The translations under genes were made by a program, and so were the position numbers. This document shows positions 36,069 to 37,941 of a stretch of 38,826 nt of DNA, piece by piece; the stretch's first letter is position 1; each line of letters starts with the position of its first letter. A model generated the notes under the pieces. It was given only the letters and a program-made list of their open reading frames with translations, searched no databases and was not told the DNA's origin. Source of the stretch: Rhodoluna sp. (lineage in GTDB: Bacteria > Actinomycetota > Actinomycetes > Actinomycetales > Microbacteriaceae); contig JAURIU010000006.1 in NCBI GenBank assembly GCA_030832605.1, positions 1 to 38,826 of the forward strand, given 5' to 3'.

Positions 36069-36227
36069 GAAGAACTTGTAATGCTTGTCTATCATGGCAG
36101 AAAACAGCGATATAGGGGCAAGTTATTCCCAGTATTGCCCTCGAAGTGTATGCCTCTAGGAGGTAGATTAAGTTCGCTTGAGGCGTAAACTCTTCAATAC
36201 CAGACACTCGCGTTTCCTTCCTCGTTT

Positions 36228-36257
36228 TTGGCAAAATAGTTATAGATTTGTAATAAT
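36228..36257 (+). promoter_or_regulatory. Candidate sigma70/SigA-like promoter of the accessory three-gene cassette
   Basis: TTGGCA (36228-36233), 17-bp spacer, TAATAAT (36251-36257), followed about 20 nt later by GAGGAG RBS and ATG at 36289. Confidence 0.6.
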
Positions 36258-36288
36258 CGAAAAAATGTTCGAATGTGAGGAGTTCAAC

Positions 36289-36657
36289 ATGGGTCATGCG
36301 AGCGGGGGAGGCTATTCTTCCCCGGGTGGCCTTAGCCAAAACTTAGGGAAGCTTTTGAATAAGTTTCCGTCGGATCGGCAAGGAAGGTTGGGGGCTAAGG
36401 GCAGAAACAAGGCTCGGCTGATCGCCTCAGATAATCCAGCAAAAACCTCGGAGGATGTCTATTCTGCGTTGAAATCTGGGGGTAAGGAATCCAGACTTCC
36501 CAACGGGAAAGGACGTCTCACCGCGTTCCCCGATGGTTCTCGCGTGATCCACCGACCCGTCTCATCATCTGATGGCAGCCCGGTGGTGGAGATAAGCATC
36601 AAAGGCCCAAATGGGTCCTCGTACAAAATACACTTCATTCCTAAGGAGTCCAAATGA
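36289..36657 (+). CDS. Small Gly-rich N-terminus protein with toxin-like (polymorphic-toxin C-terminal-like) tail; hypothetical
   Basis: MGHASGGGYSSPGGLSQNLGKLLNKFP...RLPNGKGRLTAFPDGSRVIHRPVSSSDGSPVVEISIKGPNGSSYKIHFIPKESK; GAGGAG RBS 7 nt before ATG 36289, preferred over the ORF-track start at 36178. Confidence 0.6.
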   Translation: MGHASGGGYSSPGGLSQNLGKLLNKFPSDRQGRLGAKGRNKARLIASDNPAKTSEDVYSALKSGGKESRLPNGKGRLTAFPDGSRVIHRPVSSSDGSPVVEISIKGPNGSSYKIHFIPKESK

Positions 36658-37232
36658 TTGAGCCCAACATGTCTACAGAGTTTTCAGATTCTGAAAACCA
36701 ACAGCTTTCCGAACTTATTGGTTCCAAATTACTTTTTGTTGGCGGTAAGGACCTTCCAGAGTTTCTGGTGGCGAGTCAAATTGTCATCTCAACAACTAAA
36801 GGCGCTTTAGTTTTTGAAGGCGACGTTGTCGAATCAGGCTTTGAGGGCTATGTAGAGAACTACTCAAGGATCAGAGTTCACCCTTCGCCGGCGAAAGAAG
36901 TCTCAAATTTACAAATTCGGGGCAATGTTTATTTTCAGCATGCCGGCGAACTAATCCGCAACGTCTACGTTGTCCGACGAGTTATCACCGAACTAAAGCA
37001 GGGTGTGCCATCATGGACGCTTGCGACATCTAGAGCTGTTGTTCTTGATTTTGGTACCACGCAGTTGTGCCTAAGTAAATTAGGCGAGCACGATGAAGCC
37101 CTGGCGATTACGGACATGCATGGCTTTGAAATCGGCAAGGTGCCAGAAACTACAAGTTATTTTGAGGTAGATCTGGAGACTGGGTATCAAGTTCACGATG
37201 AAATAATTTTGCTGAATGACCCCGATGCCTGA
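36654..37232 (+). CDS. Uncharacterised 192-aa protein, putative immunity/antitoxin partner
   Basis: ATGA overlap with upstream ORF, AAGGAG RBS just upstream; no family recognised from sequence. Confidence 0.65.
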   Translation: MIEPNMSTEFSDSENQQLSELIGSKLLFVGGKDLPEFLVASQIVISTTKGALVFEGDVVESGFEGYVENYSRIRVHPSPAKEVSNLQIRGNVYFQHAGELIRNVYVVRRVITELKQGVPSWTLATSRAVVLDFGTTQLCLSKLGEHDEALAITDMHGFEIGKVPETTSYFEVDLETGYQVHDEIILLNDPDA

Positions 37233-37941
37233 TGGTTGGTTTCGGGGTGACCAGGGGCGCCAAATCTGCCAACACGACATCCTCGGTGGTCTCACCAAAG
37301 GGTATGAAGGGCACTTTGCCGTTGAAGGGCTGCAGATGATACCCGTTCTATCTGGTGCTTCGCTCGAAGCAATCCCAAGCTTTGCGATACCCTTCAACGC
37401 CGACTTAGCAGAGATTCCATCTCAGGACGTTGGATTGCACTTTTACTGTGATGACCAAAAGTTCATTTCTGTAATTTCAGATCCCCTTCGATGGGTCAAT
37501 CGTTTTGCGAAGTACAAGTGTGTCTTTACACCGGACATTAGTTTGAGCGAGAGCATGGCCCCGTGGCAAAGAGTTAAGAACACGGTTTATTCGCGCTGCA
37601 TAGGGGCAACATGGGAGGCTCGTGGCCTAAAAGTGATTCCCTCAATCCGATGGGCAAATCCTGCTGACTATGAATTCGTGGGAGACGGGATTCCCAGGGG
37701 AAGCGTCGTTGCCTTTGGCGCATTAGGCTCCTACAGGGATAGGAACAAAAGGCTCATTTTCCAACATGGGGTCGAGGCCATGATTGAGCGTTTAGAGCCA
37801 CAAGCAATCATTGTCTACGGCAAGCTGGACAACGGTTTTCACTCGCGACTCGAAACCAAAGTTCAGGTCCACAATCTTTTTAACCCTAGGCTGATACCCA
37901 AAGCGGTAGGTGGTTCTGCCCGAAAACCAACCTTATTTTAG
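37216..37941 (+). CDS. DUF4417 domain-containing protein
   Basis: [130 protein letters not shown] matches the DUF4417 pattern; alternative start ATG 37225. Confidence 0.82.

Follow-up and report, generated by a model that had tools for sequence, protein, structure and literature searches.

A horizontally exchanged candidate toxin-immunity cassette with a linked DUF4417 gene at the ribD-trpS slot of Rhodoluna

What might three short, overlapping genes be doing between the rib operon and trpS of a Rhodoluna species? The genes lie in a 38,826-nucleotide stretch (contig JAURIU010000006.1, hereafter the window) of a 1.22-Mb draft genome that is 77% complete and belongs to a genus whose assemblies are mostly 0.8-1.6 Mb. 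A first-pass annotation of the window had suggested a toxin-immunity-DUF4417 module with a BECR-like RNase as the toxin. We propose that the cassette is probably a horizontally exchanged chromosomal toxin-immunity module in which ORF1 would be the toxin, ORF2 its immunity protein and the DUF4417 protein a dedicated partner of the short glycine-rich tag with which ORF1 begins.

The three plus-strand ORFs and both of their overlaps (ATGA at 36654-36657 between ORF1 and ORF2, and 17 nt at 37216-37232 between ORF2 and ORF3) are present as annotated (Table 1). The cassette sits between the divergent rib operon, on the ribD side with its FMN riboswitch leader, and trpS, which converges from the right and overlaps the end of the cassette by 4 nt. 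The genes are also AT-rich relative to their surroundings, as had been noted, with GC contents of 53% (ORF1), 45% (ORF2) and 50% (ORF3) compared with about 56-63% in the rib genes. The assignment of ORF3 to DUF4417 holds, its match to PF14386 scoring 128.8 bits against a gathering cut-off of 28.9. The start of ORF1 has moved, however. Since a promoter-like site and GAGGAG precede the ATG at 36289 and most homologues start with a matching MGxGxxGG-type sequence in the alignment, the gene is placed at 36289-36657, and the TTG at 36178 from which it had been read is an unlikely start. The cassette had further been credited with a promoter of its own. A TTGGCA-N18-AATAAT site indeed ends 31 nt before the ATG, but the consensus scan found two promoter-like sites compared with 2.1 in shuffled sequences, which is the chance level, and the putative promoter is suggestive only. 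Elsewhere in the window there is a ZMP/ZTP riboswitch at 22069-22150 on the plus strand (RF01750, 57.5 bits).

Table 1. Features of the cassette and its flank (window coordinates).
Feature	Position	Strand	Basis or remark
FMN riboswitch, leader of the divergent rib operon, flank of the insertion	35912..36078	-	Rfam RF00050, 95.1 bits
Putative cassette promoter, TTGGCA-N18-AATAAT, TG before the -10 (extended -10)	36228..36257	+	Consensus scan
Ribosome binding site GAGGAG	36277..36282	+	Sequence; six bases 5' of ATG 36289
ORF1, 122 aa	36289..36657	+	Gly-rich N-terminal tag and toxin-like C-terminal domain
ORF1 Gly-rich N-terminal tag MGHASGGGY	36289-36315	+	
ORF1 toxin-like C-terminal domain	about 36397-36645	+	
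ORF2, 192 aa, candidate immunity protein	36654..37232	+	Position next to ORF1 and retention after ORF1 decay
ORF3, 241 aa, DUF4417 (core 37339-37833)	37216..37941	+	PF14386, E 2.1e-37; phrog_940, E 7.5e-41

Comparison within the genus bore out the suggestion that the cassette is an accessory insertion rather than a core locus. ORF1 is carried by 14 of the 67 genomes, four single-contig genomes are without it, and in about 20 genomes the spacing between trpS and ribD is only about 165-430 bp. A cassette occupies the ribD-trpS slot in nine genomes, and many of these cassettes are only 25-46% identical to that of the window, with RibD at 63-95%. Between the loci L013 and L014 the rib genes are 77-79% identical and the cassettes 97-99%, whereas the window and L013 display the reverse pattern, with rib genes at 89-94% and cassettes at 72-79%. 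These values indicate that the cassette is exchanged between species as a unit, and the L013/L014 pair is the clearest evidence for it. At L080 two cassettes are stacked with fragments of trpS and the ribD region between them, and the one adjoining trpS has lost ORF1 and kept ORF2 and DUF4417. Because the two cassettes are unlike, the array is better read as an incoming cassette stacked beside an older one that lost ORF1 than as a tandem duplication. The slot is a natural record of cassette swapping and displacement in the genus. Duplicated trpS 3' fragments are found in L086 and L080. In other genomes of the genus (L078, L079, L081, L082, L083 and L086) this variable insertion slot is filled by ABC transporters for sugars, a carbohydrate operon (transketolase/sugar kinase) or small exported proteins.

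The three genes also recur together well outside the genus. An alignment-based scan for ORF1 with one genome per species identified 33 loci, distributed over Actinomycetota, Bacillota, Kiritimatiellota, Lentisphaerota and Fibrobacterota. In a non-redundant set of 41 intact ORF1 genes, which includes the genus and phage copies, ORF2 lies directly downstream in every case, although strongly diverged in L026 and L028, and DUF4417 is alongside in 40 (partial in two), the gene order being either DUF4417-ORF1-ORF2 or ORF1-ORF2-DUF4417. This survey of gene neighborhoods, spanning five phyla, substantiates the idea of a linked trio. No intact ORF1 among the 41 was without ORF2; in nine further copies ORF1 is truncated, interrupted or absent, and ORF2 is full-length in eight of them, the ninth being at a contig end. 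A toxin that needs an antidote, together with an antidote able to outlive the toxin, would explain this asymmetric decay. ORF1 had no match in plasmids, and among phages it was found in one gut phage record, which has the full cassette with XRE and M78 genes; initial scans of viral_contigs with DUF4417 and with ORF1 gave no match. A lone ORF2-like gene adjoining a glpX-like gene (L004:908-1504) is a candidate orphan immunity gene, and an ORF2-like match in L006 was discarded because the protein that holds it is SAF-like and probably serves in pilus assembly.

Small adjacent genes with overlapping ends that are mobile and occur in a minority of relatives would also suit a plain type II toxin-antitoxin addiction module, with ORF1 as toxin, ORF2 as antitoxin and DUF4417 as a passenger. 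DUF4417, however, is too constant for a passenger at 40 of 41 loci, and the ORF2 family yielded no match to a DNA-binding domain, a domain that is not present in all antitoxins. We regard the type II reading as quite unlikely.

What kind of protein is ORF1? It has no match in Pfam, NCBIfam, PHROGs or PADLOC. When 395 genomes of the class were searched with a profile, five further proteins were found that have the ORF1 domain at their C-terminus; one is an RHS-repeat protein with a 2184-aa frame, and the other four, which are without Pfam domains, were classed as toxin-like by eye. ORF1 aligned with the C-termini of these proteins at an hhalign E of 3.3e-13, a value that is somewhat circular as the proteins had been selected by the ORF1 profile. 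The C-terminal domain of ORF1 is a homologue of those that end an RHS protein and other toxin-like proteins. R89, P98, K113 and F116 are invariant in the ORF1 alignment, H115 is nearly so, and the loop SSxDGSP98 is conserved. Each of the five proteins has a small ORF (121-149 aa) immediately 3' of its gene; the small ORFs can be aligned with one another and are unrelated to ORF2 (hhalign E 0.68). In the AlphaFold model of ORF1 (pLDDT 83, modelled without the phage-record sequence), one main helix is followed by strands. Foldseek found nothing for this model with E below 0.001 either in the PDB, where the best match was Tas1 at 0.037, or among viral models, and a helix with antiparallel strands fits many folds. 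Given that no PDB match reached E below 0.001, and with no Pfam match, ORF1 is not filed as a BECR-fold RNase. Of the earlier description of the ORF1 tail, its toxin-like character thus survives through homology and its RNase fold is unsupported. The toxin/immunity and accessory parts of the module hypothesis have fared better, as the recurring linkage, the exchange between species, the C-terminal homology of ORF1 and its asymmetric decay together make that reading well supported at the level of sequence.

In several respects the cassette resembles the polymorphic toxin systems, among which standalone toxin cassettes have been described (Zhang 2012, PMC3482391). Its C-terminal domain is interchangeable and common to RHS and large toxin-like proteins, and a small candidate immunity gene directly follows the toxin gene (41/41). 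The cassette differs in having a constant DUF4417 partner and an ORF2 family with no Pfam model. Moreover, the 122-aa ORF1 has no N-terminal trafficking or delivery domain, its N-terminus being only Gly-rich and its sequence without a Pfam domain. The cassette adds candidate toxin and immunity families that are missing from Pfam, NCBIfam and PADLOC. It is best placed with the polymorphic toxin-immunity systems, and there is a real chance that the partnership of DUF4417 with the tag forms a separate class.

More interesting than the toxin-immunity observation, in our judgment, is how often DUF4417, for which the first-pass annotation had offered no hypothesis, lies next to Gly-tagged effectors. 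We compared 104 DUF4417 loci, drawn from viral contigs, phages, plasmids and actinobacterial genomes. At 71 of them an immediate neighbor on the same strand encodes a protein beginning with M-GGRG (mostly MGGRG[AS]), and at some loci as many as four tagged genes form an array. When DUF4417 was clustered at 65% identity, 23 of the 38 clusters had a tagged neighbor by the strict pattern and five more by a relaxed one. The remaining ten include the ORF1 cassettes L126/L127, L133 with its GTG-started MGGGAG partner, four clusters (L129-L132) with weak or partial DUF4417 matches, two in which the tagged gene is further off (L142 and L206) and two with none (L172 and L216). Tagged ORFs numbered 105 in 516 kb, compared with 0 in 346 kb of control loci. 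Each of the six exact matches to the tag pattern that were checked follows directly on a DUF4417 gene; one is partial, at the end of a contig or locus, and several come from contigs that are nearly identical. The Gly and Arg codons of the tag vary freely, which argues that it is conserved as protein and rules out a DNA site for recombination or ParB. The terminase P-loops GGRGSxKS of L141 and L144 are false tags.

Beyond the tag, the proteins diverge. Their C-terminal parts are unlike each other and most have no Pfam match, the recognized domains being ADPrib_exo_Tox (ADP-ribosyltransferase exoenzyme; four), Gln_amidase (glutamine deamidase toxin; four) and CdiA_C (one). It is conceivable that the cassette is not a toxin at all and is instead a metabolic or structural accessory set, a reading with which the lack of a solved homologue in PDB sequence searches with the ORF1, ORF2 and DUF4417 families would agree. 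The toxin domains among DUF4417 neighbors, together with the C-terminal homology and asymmetric decay of ORF1, argue against that reading and make it very unlikely in our view. Of 35 ORF1 proteins, 25 begin with MG and have three or more Gly within residues 2-10, compared with 2 of 173 background proteins. The strict tag occurs in a single family member (L031, MGGRGADKNGG), and the others have the relaxed MGxGxxGG; we infer that this relaxed start is the same tag as the phage MGGRG. A comparison with the tagged phage proteins turned up no member of the ORF1 or ORF2 family.

A second chromosomal version of the arrangement, L133, has the gene row XRE, M78 protease, DUF4417, a Gly-tagged protein of 138 aa and DUF7674. 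At its C-terminus the tagged protein matches the very end of proteins of 479 and 513 aa. A different effector and candidate immunity gene thus occupy a constant frame, as happens in polymorphic systems. An XRE and M78 (ImmA/CapP-like) pair is also upstream in at least six ORF1 loci (L003, L007, L016, L019, L025 and L037). CapH/CapP pairs of this type release defense operons on DNA damage (PMC13373217). With such a pair upstream, these relatives resemble operons of that kind, whereas the window cassette has none.

These neighbors raise the possibility, which we hold tentatively, of anti-phage abortive infection, a special case of the main model in which ORF1 would be the killer, ORF2 would restrain it, and DUF4417 would sense infection or activate ORF1 on phage entry. 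The pair in L133 and the ORF1 loci, the PADLOC capH/capP models that match genes flanking some cassettes, the restriction-modification genes that flank certain copies (hsdM in L007, for example), and the exchange between species of a cassette that is highly diverse at one slot are all consistent with it. Conversely, none of the three proteins has a match in PADLOC-DB, the regulator pair is missing from most loci, window included, and ordinary mobile elements can have XRE/M78 pairs too. That phages themselves encode DUF4417 argues against a sensor working purely on the host side.

The phage loci suggest a further alternative, namely that the Gly tag directs the toxin into phage heads, or into a particle of phage origin, with DUF4417 helping to load it. 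Phage DUF4417 genes are often beside terminase and head genes, the tagged proteins carry toxin domains, and in four phage loci (L140, L143:1637, L151 and L168) the tag appears as LQFFGGRG[AS] within NLQFFGGRG[AS]-like starts, where the LQFF motif is possibly a head-targeting or processing site. Precedents are the MuF toxins and head-packaged ARTs of phages (PMC5576092, PMC9503650). The tagged proteins are like the MuF polymorphic toxins of temperate phages (PMC5576092) in being phage-borne and in the variety of their toxin C-termini, among which are ART and peptidase types, and unlike them in having a short tag, a separate DUF4417 gene and chromosomal versions with ORF2. The MuF domain had no match in 68 tagged proteins, nor in ORF1. 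The gene neighborhood and these precedents suggest, as a lead only, that the tagged effectors of phages may be delivered with phage DNA. As an account of the cassette, however, delivery is unlikely, since chromosomal copies lie among housekeeping genes without phage structural genes and in some phages DUF4417 is found within a tRNA array or a tail region.

For the toxin-immunity module that we favor, the following mechanism may be envisaged. ORF1, a short Gly-rich tag joined to a C-terminal effector domain from the polymorphic-toxin pool, would poison its own cell unless bound and neutralized by ORF2. DUF4417 would recognize or handle the Gly-rich tag of ORF1 and of many other effectors and, as a chaperone, adaptor or tag-modifying enzyme, help to keep, mature or place the tagged protein. 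Because ORF1 has no trafficking domain, an internal role is most likely rather than secretion, and this could be either phage-triggered self-poisoning (abortive infection) or addiction that keeps the cassette in place.

More broadly, we propose that DUF4417 is a dedicated partner of an apparently undescribed class of Gly-tagged polymorphic effectors and that the cassette is a domesticated chromosomal toxin-immunity module. In its fullest form, the proposal is that DUF4417 defines a class of effectors starting M-G-G-R-G-[AS]-S-S-G, which phages combine with many toxin domains and which became domesticated on chromosomes through the gain of an immunity gene and, at times, of a damage-sensing regulator pair; we put this at slightly short of an even chance. 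In the literature, most subscription journals and preprints being outside the coverage, no paper was found that links DUF4417 to toxins, and the MGGRG string brought nothing relevant. Fusions of DUF4417 (PF14386) to a ParB fold (ParB-CTPase-DUF4417) of unknown function occur in phages, according to the portions of PMC12704722 that name the family, and those portions do not mention a partnership with tagged effectors; ORF3 shares the DUF4417 family with these fusions and is without a ParB domain. The AlphaFold model of ORF3 (pLDDT 85) had no Foldseek match in the PDB with E below 0.001, and its weak structural matches, mostly TIM barrels, are not used as evidence of activity. With the proposed partnership, a widespread family without a function gains a testable one, and the tag could find effectors in phage and bacterial genomes even where the toxic domain is unrecognized.

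Two unlike DUF4417 genes lie in tandem in Candidatus Spyradenecus (L028:5949-7442). Several phage loci (L139, L147, L149, L153 and L171) have several successive unlike MGGRG-tagged genes, many without a Pfam match, and such multi-gene loci are an untapped pool of candidate effectors.
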